Source of the DNA: an uncultured Chloroflexota bacterium
Lineage (GTDB): Bacteria > Chloroflexota > Chloroflexia > Chloroflexales > Chloroflexaceae
Assembly (NCBI GenBank): GCA_937120965.1
Contig: CAKZKA010000118.1
Location: 1 to 44,453 of the forward strand
Length of the DNA stretch: 44,453 nt
Direction: 5' to 3'
Shown here one piece after another: positions 21,656-25,323 of this stretch. The position numbers and the translations under genes were made by a program. The notes beneath the pieces were generated by a model. The model did not search any database and was not told where the DNA came from. It saw only the letters and a program-made list of their open reading frames with translations. Numbering within the stretch: the first letter of the stretch is position 1; each line of letters opens with the position of its first letter.

Positions 21656-22720
21656 ATGCAGTTGCTCTACCTTGATCCCCGTCAGCTTGAGACCGATCCC
21701 GACGGGGTGCGCGAGGACCCGGGGGACATCTCCGGCCTGGCTGCCACCATCGCCGAGCGGGGTCTGCTCCAGCCCCTTGGCGTGGTCAGCGTGGGTGGCG
21801 GGCGCTACCGCGTTGTCTACGGCGGGCGGCGCCGGGCCGCCGCCGAGCGACTGGGTCTGGAGAAGGTGCCCTGCATTGTGCTCGACGCCGACGATCCCGA
21901 CCTGTTGCTACGCCAGTTGATCGAGAACGTGCAGCGCGAGGATCTGAACGATGTGGAGCAGGCGCGGGCCTTTGCCCGCCTGCGGGCGCGGATCGTTGAA
22001 GAACGGGGCAAGCTCGCGGACCACGAACTCGATGAGGCGGTCGGCATGGCCGTGGGCCTGAGCGGACGCACGGTGCGTCGCTATCTGGGGTTGCTCGAAC
22101 TCCCCGACGAGGTGCAACAGTTGATCCGCCGCCGCGAACTGAACGTCACCCAGGCCCAGCACCTGCGCCGCGTGTCCAGCCCCCGCACCCAGGTTGAACT
22201 GGCGCGCTTTGCGGTCGAGGAGGGGCTTTCGGCGGCTGAGTTGAGCCGGCTGGTGGCCTACTTCGCCGCCAATCCTCATCTGACCCTTGAGACGGCGCTG
22301 CAGGCGCTCGAGGCGGGCGAGCAACTACGCACCGCTCCCGCCGGGCCGGAGGTGCAGATCAGCGGTGGGCCGCTGGGGAGGACCAGCGTGAGCGCCGTGG
22401 ACCGGGAGGACAGCGATGCCGACCTGTGGGAAGACGAGGAGACCGGCGAGGACGACGGGCTTTACCTCGGCGTTGAGGACGAAACCATCGAGAACCAGCC
22501 GCGCAACAAGGCGCGCGTGTTCCGCATCCGCTCGCTGGACCAGATGGTGGATGAGACCGACCGGCTGACGCGCGCCTATGCTGAGGGTGACCTGATCAAG
22601 TGGGTCAAACACGACGAAGGCGCGCCGTTCAAGCTGCGGCTGCTGCTCAAGCAACTCGAGAACCTGACCCGTGGCCTGCGGGAACTGGCCCGCCAGCAGG
22701 GCTGGGAGGTAGAGGACTGA
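21656..22720 (+). CDS. ParB-like DNA-binding protein
   Basis: 354 residues. The N-terminal ParB/Sulfiredoxin (CTPase) domain shows YLDPRQLETDP, GLLQPLGVV, the nucleotide-binding loop YGGRRRAAAERLG in place of the common GERR motif, and LLRQLIENVQREDLN (box II). A helix-turn-helix (GMAVGLSGRTVRRYLGLLELPDEVQ, then NVTQAQHL) follows. The C-terminal ~110 residues are acidic and then end in a helical segment. No parA partner and no obvious parS is adjacent, so it may be a stand-alone nucleoid-occlusion or regulatory ParB rather than the segregation protein. GGAGAG precedes the ATG. The TGA stop lies within the end of a Family C element. Confidence 0.82.
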   Translation: MQLLYLDPRQLETDPDGVREDPGDISGLAATIAERGLLQPLGVVSVGGGRYRVVYGGRRRAAAERLGLEKVPCIVLDADDPDLLLRQLIENVQREDLNDVEQARAFARLRARIVEERGKLADHELDEAVGMAVGLSGRTVRRYLGLLELPDEVQQLIRRRELNVTQAQHLRRVSSPRTQVELARFAVEEGLSAAELSRLVAYFAANPHLTLETALQALEAGEQLRTAPAGPEVQISGGPLGRTSVSAVDREDSDADLWEDEETGEDDGLYLGVEDETIENQPRNKARVFRIRSLDQMVDETDRLTRAYAEGDLIKWVKHDEGAPFKLRLLLKQLENLTRGLRELARQQGWEVED

Positions 22721-22832
22721 GGTGAACATACGGGGAAACCGGGTTTCCCCATCCCTCTGCCTGTGGGGGCGGCAAGCCCTCCCCACCGGGAGGGTTTGGG
22801 AGGGCTGCGCCCTCCCGGGCGCATCGCTGTGC
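22717..22832 (-). repeat. Family C element whose end supplies the parB stop
   Basis: CTGAGGTGAACATACGGGG is the element terminus; its TGA is the parB stop. GGGGAAACCGGGTTTCCCC follows, then a GGGAGGGTTT and a GGGAGGGC-TGC-GCCCTCCC hairpin ending near 22820. Confidence 0.7.
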
Positions 22833-22842
22833 ATGCATCGCC

Positions 22843-23121
22843 CTAACCCTCGCGGGCCGGGCGGCGCTTCGCGGTGAGAAAGGCCTCGGCGCCGCAGGCC
22901 CGCGCGTAGGCAAGGGCCGCTTCGGCCAGGGGACCATCGTCGCCATTGAGATAGGCCCGCACAGCGGGAACGAGAGCCAGCGCCGGTTCAGCGATGGCGG
23001 GTTTCAGGCGCACCCCGGGGCGCTGCGCGGCCAGCACGGCGCCGTAGATCACCGCGCGGTCGGCTTCGCGCGCCAGGTCAGCCGGTGTTACCCTGGCGCG
23101 GCAGGGCGGTTCCTGGCTCAT
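22843..23121 (-). CDS. Small uncharacterised protein co-translated with the CsoR-family gene
   Basis: 92 residues that I do not recognise. The protein is Ala/Arg-rich and predicted mostly helical, with a single Cys near the start (PPCRAR) and another near residue 75 (ARACGAE). Its ATG overlaps the TGA of the CsoR-family gene (ATGA at 23118-23121), so it is almost certainly in the same transcript and translationally coupled. The name-worthy clue is only this linkage. A heterodisulfide or metal-related role would be guesswork. Confidence 0.6.
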   Translation of the reverse strand: MSQEPPCRARVTPADLAREADRAVIYGAVLAAQRPGVRLKPAIAEPALALVPAVRAYLNGDDGPLAEAALAYARACGAEAFLTAKRRPAREG

Positions 23122-23408
23122 CGCGCCCCCTGGAACAGCTCGATCAACTCGGCGATGACCTGATCCCGGGCAAGGTCATCGTCACCCAGACAGTTGCGGG
23201 CGTAGCACTGCAATACCTGGCTGCTGACGCTGGCCAGGGCCGACTTGATCGCCGCCACCTGGGTGACAATCTCGCGGCAATCGCGGCCCTCATCAACCAT
23301 GCGCTGCACACCGCGCACCTGGCCCTCGATACGGCGTAATCGAAGAAGAATGTCCTCGCGCCGCTCCGGCGAAAGGGTGCGCGCAGGATTAGCTTGCGGC
23401 TCAACCAT
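23118..23408 (-). CDS. CsoR/RcnR-family repressor with CstR-like ligand set
   Basis: 96 residues, all-helical DUF156 fold: RREDILLRLRRIEGQVRGVQRMVDEGRDC then VTQVAAIKSALASVSSQVL. In CsoR the copper ligands are Cys, then His 25 residues later and Cys 29 residues later. Here these positions are Cys44, Tyr69 and Cys73, with an extra Cys68. Loss of the His with retention of two Cys 29 residues apart is the fingerprint of CstR, which senses persulfides by di- or trisulfide bonding rather than copper. The start is set by AAGGAGGTCACC directly before the ATG. It lies downstream of thioredoxin, whose promoter has a TACCCC/GGGGTA inverted repeat. Metal sensing remains possible. Confidence 0.85.
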   Translation of the reverse strand: MVEPQANPARTLSPERREDILLRLRRIEGQVRGVQRMVDEGRDCREIVTQVAAIKSALASVSSQVLQCYARNCLGDDDLARDQVIAELIELFQGAR

Positions 23409-23438
23409 GGTGACCTCCTTGTCAACGTGCGGGGCTGA

Positions 23439-23461
23439 GCAGCAGCCCCGGGGGTGTCTGC
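23439..23461 (-). other. GC-rich hairpin in front of the csoR-like gene
   Basis: CGGGGCTG and CAGCCCCG pair across an AGCAG loop about 30 bases before the Shine-Dalgarno. It could be a leader hairpin or an operator; there is no following T-tract on the minus strand. Confidence 0.4.
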
Positions 23462-23495
23462 TCGTGCTGTCTGCCTCGAAACAGCCTCATACTAT

Positions 23496-23682
23496 GCCCG
23501 CGCGCGGGAGGGTTTGGGAGGGCGCAGCCCTCCCAGGAAAAACCCATTTTCAGCTTGTCGTTGTGCGGCGCAGCCGCATGGGCGCCTGATGTGAACATAT
23601 GGGGAAACCGGGTTTTCTCATCCCTCCTCACTACAGGCAGGGGGATGGGGAAAGCGGGTTTCCCCTATGTGCGCATCAGCCG
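23496..23682. repeat. Two Family C elements between the csoR-like gene and thioredoxin
   Basis: The first (about 23496-23584) is read on the minus strand from CATGCGGCTGCGCCGCACAACG. The second (23586-23682) has two recognisable termini, CTGATGTGAACATATGGGG and, at the right, CCCCTATGTGCGCATCAG. The TCA inside that right end is the reverse complement of the thioredoxin TGA stop. Confidence 0.7.
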
Positions 23683-24002
23683 AGCACCTTATTGAAGACT
23701 TCGCGATACTGGGCCTCAGAACGCGAACCAACCAGTCGCCCGACCTCCTGACCGTTCTTAAAGATGATGAGCGTCGGGATGCCCTGAATGCCCAGACGGC
23801 TGGCGTGCTGGATCTCCTCGTCGGTGTTCACCTTGGCGATGGTCAGACGCCCTTCGTACTCGGTGGCGAGCTTATCGAGGATGGGCGCAATGACCCGGCA
23901 GGGGGCGCACCAGGGCGCCCAGAAATCAACGACCACCGGCTTGTCGGCCTGGAGCACCTTCTCCTCGAAATCGGCGTCTGTTACTACAATCGGCTTCGCC
24001 AT
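23676..24002 (-). CDS. trxA: Thioredoxin
   Basis: 108 residues, normal size for a thioredoxin. The active site is WAPWCAPC, with Ala in place of the usual Gly in WCGPC. KVNTDEEIQHASRLGIQGIPTLIIF contains the cis-Pro76-type loop (GIPT) and FKNGQEVGRLVG the usual end. It reduces disulfides and, in sulfur-responsive systems, persulfides. The ATG at 24002 has GAGGAGGGTAC upstream. The promoter is a perfect TTGACA-16-TATAAT with a CsoR-like inverted repeat over the transcription start. Its stop codon lies in a Family C repeat end. Confidence 0.92.
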   Translation of the reverse strand: MAKPIVVTDADFEEKVLQADKPVVVDFWAPWCAPCRVIAPILDKLATEYEGRLTIAKVNTDEEIQHASRLGIQGIPTLIIFKNGQEVGRLVGSRSEAQYREVFNKVLG

Positions 24003-24062
24003 CCCCGTACCCTCCTCATGCGGGCCGCCCGCGGCCCGGAACACGTGTGTACAAATCTGTGG

Positions 24063-24109
24063 GTACCCCCACGGGGTACTCATTATACCCTGCCGTAGCG
24101 CGCTGTCAA
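24063..24109 (-). promoter_or_regulatory. Consensus promoter and CsoR-type operator of trxA
   Basis: On the minus strand TTGACA (24109-24104), 16 bases and TATAAT (24087-24082) both match the consensus exactly. Immediately downstream, over the predicted start near 24075, lies the inverted repeat GTACCCC-GTG-GGGGTAC (24079-24063). Operators of CsoR-family proteins are G/C-tract inverted repeats flanked by TA, of the type TACCCC...GGGGTA, so the csoR-like gene in this cluster is the natural candidate repressor. Confidence 0.7.
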
Positions 24110-24128
24110 TTGCCAGGGTTGCTTGTGC

Positions 24129-24134
24129 TATACT
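24129..24134 (+). promoter_or_regulatory. Candidate -10 for the divergent hydrolase gene
   Basis: TATACT on the plus strand, in the region just upstream of the trxA -35. The matching -35 is poor (TCAATT at 17 bases). It would place the two genes under a shared divergent control region. Confidence 0.3.
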
Positions 24135-24192
24135 GTTTTTGCTCGTGCTGGCCGGTTGCGCGCGCAGTTGCGCCGCGGCTCTGCCGGGATGC

Positions 24193-24296
24193 AACACATA
24201 GAGGCGCGGCGCCGCTGCGCCTCTACGCCCACGCTCTTCCTGGCGTGAAGGGCGCGGGGAAACCCGGTTTCCCCTGAGTTCATCATCAGTGTGTCG
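24193..24296 (+). repeat. Family C element before the metallo-hydrolase gene
   Basis: TAGAGGCGCGGCGCCGC-TGCGCCTCTA hairpin, then GGGGAAACCCGGTTTCCCC and the end GAGTTCATCATCAG. The gap 24135-24192 shows nothing else. Confidence 0.6.
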
Positions 24297-24310
24297 TCAA
24301 GGAGGCGGAC

Positions 24311-25042
24311 ATGACCACGATCGGCAAAGATGTCACGATCACCCGGGTCGGCCACGGCACGTTCCATATCACGACCCCTGAGGGCAAGGATATTCTGATC
24401 GACGCCTGGGTTGACGGCAATCCCGCCTGTCCTGAGCCGTTGAAGAGCCGCGTGCGCCAGAACCTGGCGGCAATCTTCATAACGCACGGCCATTTCGACC
24501 ACATCGGCGATGTGCAGGCCCTTGCGCAGGACACCGGCGCCACCGTTGTCTGCCAGTTTGATATGGTGCCCTATCTGGAAGCGAAGGGCATCGCAACAGA
24601 GAAACTGGTCGGCTTCAATATGGGCGGTACGGTGACGGTCGCCGGGGTGCGCGCCACGATGACCGCCGCGCACCATTCCAGCACGATCTACGAAAATGGT
24701 CAGATTATCAACCTGGGCGCCCCGGCGGGTTACGTGCTGCGCTTTAGCAATGACTTCACTATTTACCACACCGGCGATACCTGCGTAACGATGGATATGC
24801 AGATCATCGGTGAGCTGTACAAACCCGATCTGGTTATTTTGCCGATTGGCGATTACTTTACCATGGACCCACGCCAGGCGGCCTATGCGTTGAAGCTGAT
24901 CGGGGCGCGCTATGCCATTCCTGAACATTTCGCCACATTCCCGATCCTTACCGGCACCCCTGAGGCTCTGGCAGAAGCGTGTAAGGAGTTTGGCGTGACG
25001 ACGCAGATCATCGCCCTCAAACCGGGCGAGTCGGTCGCCTGA
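24311..25042 (+). CDS. Metallo-beta-lactamase-fold hydrolase (UPF0173-like)
   Basis: 243 residues, typical of UPF0173/RNase Z-like L-ascorbate-6-phosphate lactonase-related proteins. The zinc motif is ITHGHFDHIGD (His59, His61, Asp63, His64). AAHHSST, IYHTGDTCVTMDMQ (bridging Asp) and AIPEHFATFPIL (final His) provide the other ligands. The substrate of the family is unknown. CAAGGAGGCGG lies 3-4 bases before the ATG and fixes the start. It is divergent from thioredoxin; a functional link is possible but the Family C element between them complicates any shared promoter. Confidence 0.88.
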   Translation: MTTIGKDVTITRVGHGTFHITTPEGKDILIDAWVDGNPACPEPLKSRVRQNLAAIFITHGHFDHIGDVQALAQDTGATVVCQFDMVPYLEAKGIATEKLVGFNMGGTVTVAGVRATMTAAHHSSTIYENGQIINLGAPAGYVLRFSNDFTIYHTGDTCVTMDMQIIGELYKPDLVILPIGDYFTMDPRQAAYALKLIGARYAIPEHFATFPILTGTPEALAEACKEFGVTTQIIALKPGESVA

Positions 25043-25094
25043 GGGTGTTTCCATCGTGAAGCAGTTCACCAGCCCCGCGCGCCCATCGGTTACC

Positions 25095-25323
25095 CGTGGC
25101 GCTGCGTTGCCACCGCGGGGCGCGAGGGCGCAGCCCTCCCGGACCCGCCCCGCAGGGAGGGGCCCGGGGAAACCCGGTTTCCCCATCTGTTCACGTCAGG
25201 CCCCATGCGCAAGGCGCACAACGCCAGAATGAACATTTGTGCTTGGGAGGGTGTAGAGGCGCGGCGCCGCCGCGACTCTACGCCCAAATCCTTCCGCGCG
25301 CGGGCTATGTTCACATCAGCACG
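25095..25323 (+). repeat. Two adjacent Family C elements
   Basis: The first ends GGGGAAACCCGGTTTCCCC-ATCTGTTCACGTCAGG (about 25200). The second begins CCCATGCGCAAGGCGCACAACGCCAGAATGAACAT, contains the TAGAGGCGCGGCGCCGCCGCG module and ends GGGCTATGTTCACATCAG at about 25320. Together they show the complete left and right ends of the family best. Nothing else is seen in 25043-25355. Confidence 0.7.

Follow-up and report, generated by a model that had tools for sequence, protein, structure and literature searches.

Introduction

Which genes, and which signal, would a repressor of the CsoR family serve when it lacks the histidine of the copper site and its gene stands behind a thioredoxin gene? 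The question is raised by a 44,453-nucleotide contig (CAKZKA010000118.1, assembly GCA_937120965.1) from an uncultured Chloroflexota bacterium of the Chloroflexaceae, referred to here in its whole length as the window; it has a G+C content of 66% and belongs to a genome of 5.18 Mb. On its minus strand a promoter, an inverted repeat, a thioredoxin gene (trxA), a csoR-like gene for a 96-aa protein, and a 92-aa open reading frame (ORF) follow one another in that order. Our reading, to which we give a probability of roughly 0.7, is that the product of the csoR-like gene is a CstR-like repressor that acts on the thioredoxin system and is switched through its thiols. The features on which this reading turns are as follows.

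24082 to 24109, minus strand: trxA promoter, TTGACA-16-TATAAT; exact consensus (12 of 12 matches), the sole exact match in the window.
24063 to 24079, minus strand: putative operator, GTACCCC-GTG-GGGGTAC; exact inverted repeat, starting 2 bp past the -10 hexamer.
23676 to 24002, minus strand: trxA, 108-aa thioredoxin (WCAPC); NCBIfam TIGR01068 at 122.4 bits (cut-off 96.8), Pfam Thioredoxin.
23118 to 23408, minus strand: csoR-like gene, 96-aa CsoR/RcnR-family protein without the ligand histidine; PF02583, Cys44, Cys68, Tyr69, and Cys73, three-helix model.

Results

The csoR-like gene travels with trxA

Across the order, 82 genomes were searched, among them genomes of the window's own family (f1) and of the sister families f2, f3, and f4; some CsoR-family match was found in 75 of them. 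In all 49 csoR-like loci read (30 + 19), trxA lies upstream, on the same strand, of a csoR gene whose product lacks the histidine; the two genes are no more than 137 nt apart in 46 loci and no more than 315 nt apart in the other 3. One further locus that was fetched (L180) carries a copper-type gene without trxA, and in the f2 and f3 genomes the best csoR matches, which were not read individually, are at the level of the copper paralog or there are none. Outside the phylum, 4 Bacillota loci (L038, L040, L054, and L058, including Syntrophomonas) have a histidine-retaining csoR gene before trxA, and TACCC...GGGTA occurs upstream of csoR in 3 of the 4.

Residues, family, and fold of the 96-aa protein

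The protein scores 93.5 bits against Trns_repr_metal (PF02583; cut-off 22.8) and passes no NCBIfam cut-off, the models for RicR, FrmR, and RcnR all falling far below theirs (FrmR 50.3 bits against 133, RcnR 33.1 against 138). The preliminary description of this DNA had noted two cysteines 29 residues apart, Cys44 and Cys73, and a tyrosine, Tyr69, where copper-sensing CsoR has histidine. Alignment bears this out: both cysteines fall on cysteines of the Geobacillus thermodenitrificans copper CsoR, and Tyr69 falls on its ligand-position histidine, so that the Cys-His-Cys metal site is not present. What had been missed is a third conserved cysteine, Cys68, beside the other two. Against pneumococcal CstR (7mq3), the cysteines at positions X and Z match Cys44 and Cys73, and position Y is alanine in CstR; the window protein thus has the CstR-type arrangement of cysteines at X and Z with no metal-ligand histidine at Y. 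Within the window's family, Cys44, Cys68, Tyr69, and Cys73 are invariant in all 32 aligned rows (two of which are identical sequences from a second collection), and none carries a histidine in the ligand position, the result that would have spoken against the preliminary description; residue 43 is aspartate in 26 of 26 rows, and an additional f1 locus (L188) has phenylalanine at position 69. In the sister family f4 (11 rows) Cys68 is absent and Cys75 is present in 11 of 11, and 3 of the 11 have cysteine at 69 and lack Cys73. These rearrangements indicate that cysteines are kept while the metal site is not.

The predicted structure has three helices and a mean predicted local distance difference test score of 82.4. 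Its best matches in the Protein Data Bank (PDB) are copper CsoRs (Foldseek E 1.6e-4); a VIA comparison with CsoR gave Z 11.3 with a root-mean-square deviation of 1.6 over 84 aligned, a Z that for helical bundles counts as no more than supportive, and the model also matches FrmR, InrS, and CstR structures. Such a model match speaks for a CsoR-family fold and not for the signal.

It could be argued that a metal, copper or another, is the signal in spite of the missing histidine, and that thioredoxin is induced in the course of metal-thiol stress. Family ancestry and the best PDB matches lean that way, as do the histidine-bearing csoR-trxA pairs of the Bacillota and the operator carried by one copZ gene. 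Against it, the Y-position histidine is lost throughout the window's family, Cys73 too is lost in 3 of the 11 f4 rows, and the genome keeps a separate CsoR-family gene (contig C81) that adjoins copZ and encodes histidine at position 69. Moreover, in a wider set of 78 loci, comprising 54 Cys-His-Cys and 14 Cys-Tyr-Cys proteins, CopZ was found within 1.5 kb of 18 of the 54 Cys-His-Cys genes versus none of the 14 Cys-Tyr-Cys genes, although with one CopZ query and two OsmC queries neighbors may be missed; the same 14 loci had an OsmC neighbor in 4 and TrxA in 2. A metal signal therefore appears unlikely, and identity with copper CsoR was rejected on the two grounds of no histidine at 69 and a separate, copZ-linked paralog that has it.

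A tree of 91 rows, built from few columns for that many rows, joins the order's 14 trxA-linked rows in one group (support 89/85) inside a 32-row side (98/94). On the window's side, histidine at 69 occurs in 1 of 18 rows from the wider set and 0 of 14 from the order; on the opposite side it occurs in 53 of 58, the remaining 5 having tyrosine (Caloramator, Clostridium, and a relative). A clean split between histidine-bearing and histidine-less proteins was rejected, since exceptions were found on both sides. Among Chloroflexota beyond the order, two loci (L086 and L016) have a histidine-less csoR-like gene followed by an OsmC-family gene (Pfam); in L086 trxA comes after the OsmC-family gene, and L023 is perhaps similar, its OsmC being recognized by look only.

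The putative operator before trxA

Both the perfect TTGACA-16-TATAAT promoter and the GTACCCC-GTG-GGGGTAC repeat claimed for trxA are there to the letter. The chance mean for such an exact promoter in the window is 0.00, and the repeat, starting 2 bp downstream of the -10 hexamer, thus spans the position where transcription should start. Exact TACCCC-N3-GGGGTA sites number 3 in the genome, where about 0.6 would be expected from base composition (63% G+C assumed), which places the inverted repeat above chance; they lie before trxA, before the thioredoxin reductase gene trxB, and within a 526-codon open frame (contig C58). The operator signal shows with exact sites and with position.

Across the order, the 180 bp before trxA were scored for their best match to TACCCCNNNGGGGTA, which has 0 mismatches in 23 loci, 1 in 17, 2 in 5, and 3 in 3 (n = 48, L176 being left out of the 49 because its trxA runs off the contig). 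Hence the core is present with at most 1 mismatch in 40 of 48 usable loci, window included, compared with 0.2% of dinucleotide shuffles; the absence of the operator from orthologous loci, which would have spoken against the earlier proposal, is not what is seen. A TATAAT-like hexamer (at least 4 of 6) overlaps the site or ends within 12 nt of it in 43 of the 48 loci, a count that has no control.

Does the operator belong to another repressor, with the csoR-like gene a mere neighbor? Binding of the operator by the 96-aa protein is putative, and several trxB sites have a second, TAATCTAGATTA-like palindrome next to them. Yet palindromes with runs of at least 4 G or C are typical of the CsoR family; exact sites are absent (0, control 1) from nine f2 and f3 genomes that have no comparable csoR-like match; and trxA linkage holds in every locus read. 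We regard this alternative as very improbable.

A proposed wider regulon

An unbiased scan for exact sites covered 41 genomes of f1, the window's own included, with the reversed motif as control. It returned 46 exact operators against 6 for the control, with at least one in 27 of the 41 genomes. By downstream gene, 18 precede trxA, 18 trxB, and 1 each a glutaredoxin gene, copZ, and a DsrK-like gene, and 7 lie within open frames. With at most 1 mismatch allowed, 12 of the 14 trxB loci in f1 carry the site, as against 1 of 12 in f4 and none of the 4 in f2 and f3, a distribution by which trxA-csoR looks like an old core and trxB like an addition widespread in f1. In the window's genome the trxB palindrome widens to 23 bp, CACATACCCC-ATA-GGGGTATGTG; the trxB product scores above the NCBIfam cut-off for thioredoxin reductase and is the sole match at E 1e-60 or better in the genome, and TrxA is accompanied by five weaker thioredoxin-like matches.

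Two further genes carry the site by lineage. A glutaredoxin gene (grx) has it, with at most 1 mismatch and at a TATAAT-like -10, in 5 of 5 genomes of the window's genus and in G031; none of 8 genomes of genus g4 has it, and among the 30 loci read G070 has 1 mismatch and G061 has 2. Its product matches Pfam Glutaredoxin, and the best NCBIfam model is mycoredoxin, below cut-off with a 61-aa piece. The DsrK-like Fe-S gene has the site with 0 mismatches in G032 (L282:8887-10473), 1 in G034 (L284), and 3 in G001, and there is none in the window's own genome (28 loci); it is called DsrK-like as a label only, since it reaches 184 bits against a DsrK cut-off of 400. It may be a lineage-specific target with a link to the chemistry of sulfur or disulfides. 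In G032 it is followed by a gene for a 278-aa protein with no Pfam or NCBIfam match.

The 7 exact sites in open frames (C58 of the window's own genome, G007 in a DsbA-like frame, G014 and G016 in aminotransferase-like frames, G015, where the likeness is in the flanks only, and long frames of G001 and G034) were rejected as targets and read as coding coincidence, as was a one-mismatch site in the window's genome (L006).

Two side observations belong here. The promoter of an inositol-phosphate synthase-like gene (own contig C247, L207:397-411) has a one-mismatch site 5.6 kb from the glutaredoxin site; the corresponding site has 1 or 2 mismatches in the 3 genomes of the genus seen and 1 in G031 and G029, and it overlaps the -10 in the genus and in G031. 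The second palindrome, TAATCTAGATTACAG-like, stands beside or near the operator before trxB (L130 to L133, L145) and before grx (L234 and L236, in sister-family genomes), and possibly belongs to another regulator of trxB and grx.

The 92-aa protein and the divergent neighbor

Two other features border the system.

22843 to 23121, minus strand: conserved 92-aa ORF, function unassigned; 4-nt overlap with the stop of the csoR-like gene, no Pfam or NCBIfam match.
24311 to 25042, plus strand: UPF0173-type metal-dependent hydrolase, divergent neighbor; NCBIfam NF001911 at 232 bits (cut-off 144).

The preliminary description made the 92-aa protein a third member of the circuit, which overstates its role. 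Genes for it occur in 28 of the 82 genomes, beside csoR in 9 and elsewhere in 19, and they are present in 7 f2 and f3 genomes, where no comparable csoR-like match was found. On this distribution we regard it as a passenger that the operon may or may not carry, and reject it as an obligate member. The idea of two conserved cysteines throughout its family was likewise withdrawn, the PC[RKHQ]...AC[GA] pair being found in 6 of 12 fetched loci.

The operator sits 232 bp upstream of the hydrolase start, and the hydrolase is not claimed as a target. Dispersed palindromes of a GGGGAAACCSGGTTTCCCC type and a GGGAGGGC-GCCCTCCC type lie between genes over 22714-25204 of the window, including the gap between trxA and the csoR-like gene.

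Discussion

A proposed mechanism

CsoR-family repressors leave DNA once an effector binds or modifies them. On this footing, the reduced repressor would bind TACCCC-N3-GGGGTA just past the trxA -10 and block transcription of trxA-csoR, and thereby regulate its own gene; its further targets would be trxB and, within the window's genus, the mycoredoxin-like glutaredoxin gene. Reactive sulfur species or disulfide stress would bridge Cys44 of one protomer to a cysteine in alpha-2 of a second (Cys73, or perhaps Cys68), the bridged repressor would leave the DNA, and thioredoxin and thioredoxin reductase would rise. These enzymes would then reduce persulfides, disulfides, and presumably the bridge of the repressor itself, which would close the loop. 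The repressor would in effect gauge the load on the thiol-reducing system and release trxA, trxB, and, by lineage, grx.

Several points weigh against this proposal and should be stated together. Gene order, the operator-like sites with their positions, and the residues are read directly from the DNA, and the fold is predicted; DNA binding, repression, signal, cysteine chemistry, and feedback are what we infer from them. In the window, trxA and the csoR-like gene are separated by 267 nt with REP-like (repetitive extragenic palindromic) repeats, and here too we infer co-transcription. The loci read are 49 of the 60 csoR-like matches at E < 1e-15. Eight of the 48 trxA loci are 2 or 3 mismatches off the operator; one-mismatch sites are not enriched in the window's genome (13 against 17 for the reversed control); 14 of the 41 family genomes are without any exact site; and 11 of the 12 trxB loci of f4 are without the site. 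The genome's own trxB operator lies upstream of the likely -35 and not over the start, so that simple blockade is less clear there and the action may differ. One copZ gene (G029, L273:1501) has an exact operator 30 bp upstream, so that the motif is not confined to this repressor, and a copper-type CsoR may share its DNA specificity in places. The 4 histidine-bearing csoR-trxA pairs of the Bacillota mean that a partnership with trxA is no proof of a non-metal signal. Lastly, the 5 tyrosine rows on the histidine-bearing side of the tree imply that the histidine was lost more than once, so that its loss alone defines no function.

Reactive sulfur or disulfide stress

If the repressor of trxA and trxB is thiol-switched, what switches it? 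One answer is that, like CstR, it responds specifically to reactive sulfur (persulfide or polysulfide), disulfide oxidation being secondary; to this we give somewhat less than an even chance. The CstR-like cysteines at X and Z and the missing Y-position histidine suit it, as does the operator (at most 1 mismatch) at the DsrK-like gene of G032 and G034. In E. coli, S. aureus, and Streptomyces, sulfane sulfur or protein persulfides are reported substrates of thioredoxin, glutaredoxin, and thioredoxin reductase, and CstR is released from DNA through bridges between its two cysteines. On the other side, no sulfurtransferase, persulfide dioxygenase, or sulfide:quinone oxidoreductase (SQR) was recognized beside the 10 of 13 own-genome sites (at most 1 mismatch) that were examined; because no sulfurtransferase or sulfide-detoxification gene was recognized there, we name the protein CstR-like and not CstR. 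Moreover, trxA, trxB, and grx are just as much the genes classically associated with disulfide stress.

That target set leads to the other answer, held more tentatively, in which the same regulon responds to general disulfide or oxidant stress and the protein is a CsoR-scaffold counterpart of sigmaR-RsrA or Spx, the regulators to which such a system is likened. A parallel is TTHA1953 of Thermus thermophilus, a CsoR-family regulator which stands over a thioredoxin-led operon: a disulfide, formed also with H2O2 or Cu(II), releases it from DNA, and NaHS did not lower its binding. For the 96-aa protein, however, the signal would be assigned by analogy, and HNO is reported to cross-link CstR as well, so that the classes of signal overlap.

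The earlier proposal of a persulfide-responsive repressor of thioredoxin therefore survives in part. The histidine-less csoR gene behind trxA, and the presumed operator that recurs upstream of trxA across the order and upstream of trxB in most f1 loci, uphold the circuit; the specificity for persulfide does not stand in the same way, disulfide stress fitting as well, as the response of TTHA1953 to oxidants and not to NaHS illustrates. Persulfide is plausible as the natural signal, and from the residues and target genes it cannot be told apart from disulfide stress.

Relation to known systems

The nearest relatives in kind are the CstR proteins (S. aureus, E. faecalis, S. pneumoniae; YrkD of B. 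licheniformis), which like the window protein are CsoR-family repressors with two conserved cysteines. Pneumococcal CstR is also without histidine at position Y, but has alanine there and not tyrosine, and the third conserved cysteine, Cys68, sets the window protein apart from CstR. Studied CstR regulons center on sulfurtransferases, CoA-persulfide reductase, SQR, and dioxygenases, whereas the core set here is trxA-csoR plus trxB; the YrkD cluster holds a hypothetical thioredoxin, YdfQ, which resembles the trxA linkage. TTHA1953 is likewise CsoR-like, with two cysteines and redox-switched DNA binding, and it represses an operon led by soxW (a thioredoxin); it differs in controlling Sox sulfur oxidation, in having targets distant from its own gene, and in a consensus, TACNNTACNNNNGTANNGTA, without long C-tracts. 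These two precedents make thioredoxin a less unusual target than the preliminary description supposed, since regulons of this CstR-like kind already include the hypothetical thioredoxin YdfQ and SoxW. Copper CsoR shares fold, family, and operator type, and the window protein differs from it by the lost Y-position histidine.

OxyR and AdpA are activators of families unrelated to CsoR. The outcome proposed here has its likeness in both: under sulfane-sulfur stress OxyR of E. coli is reported to raise thioredoxin and glutaredoxin, and AdpA of Streptomyces to raise thioredoxins together with thioredoxin reductases. No regulon of trxA and trxB under a CsoR-family protein turned up in the literature searched, a search whose coverage did not extend to most subscription papers and entries of RegPrecise (which has a Chloroflexi collection). 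By its residues, then, the protein is CstR-like but for one additional cysteine; the regulon proposed for it is the thioredoxin system, and its reaction with reactive sulfur is a prediction.

What the system would mean

We see an even chance that these loci represent a thiol-redox homeostat built on the CsoR scaffold in Chloroflexales-type bacteria, in which one autoregulated, three-cysteine repressor would run trxA, the sole close trxB, and, by lineage, grx or a DsrK-like protein of the heterodisulfide-reductase type, with a cysteine set rewired between families (Cys68 versus Cys75), and would do the job that OxyR, sigmaR, or Spx does elsewhere. Many bacteria of this group live with sulfide. 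If the reading is true, the CsoR/RcnR family, which senses metals, formaldehyde, and persulfide, would also run a central thiol-reducing system, and would do so through a compact regulon, two to four genes in size, whose operator is near-palindromic. The natural rearrangements of its cysteines (at 68, 69, 73, and 75) would then allow one to ask which thiols a CstR-like switch needs.

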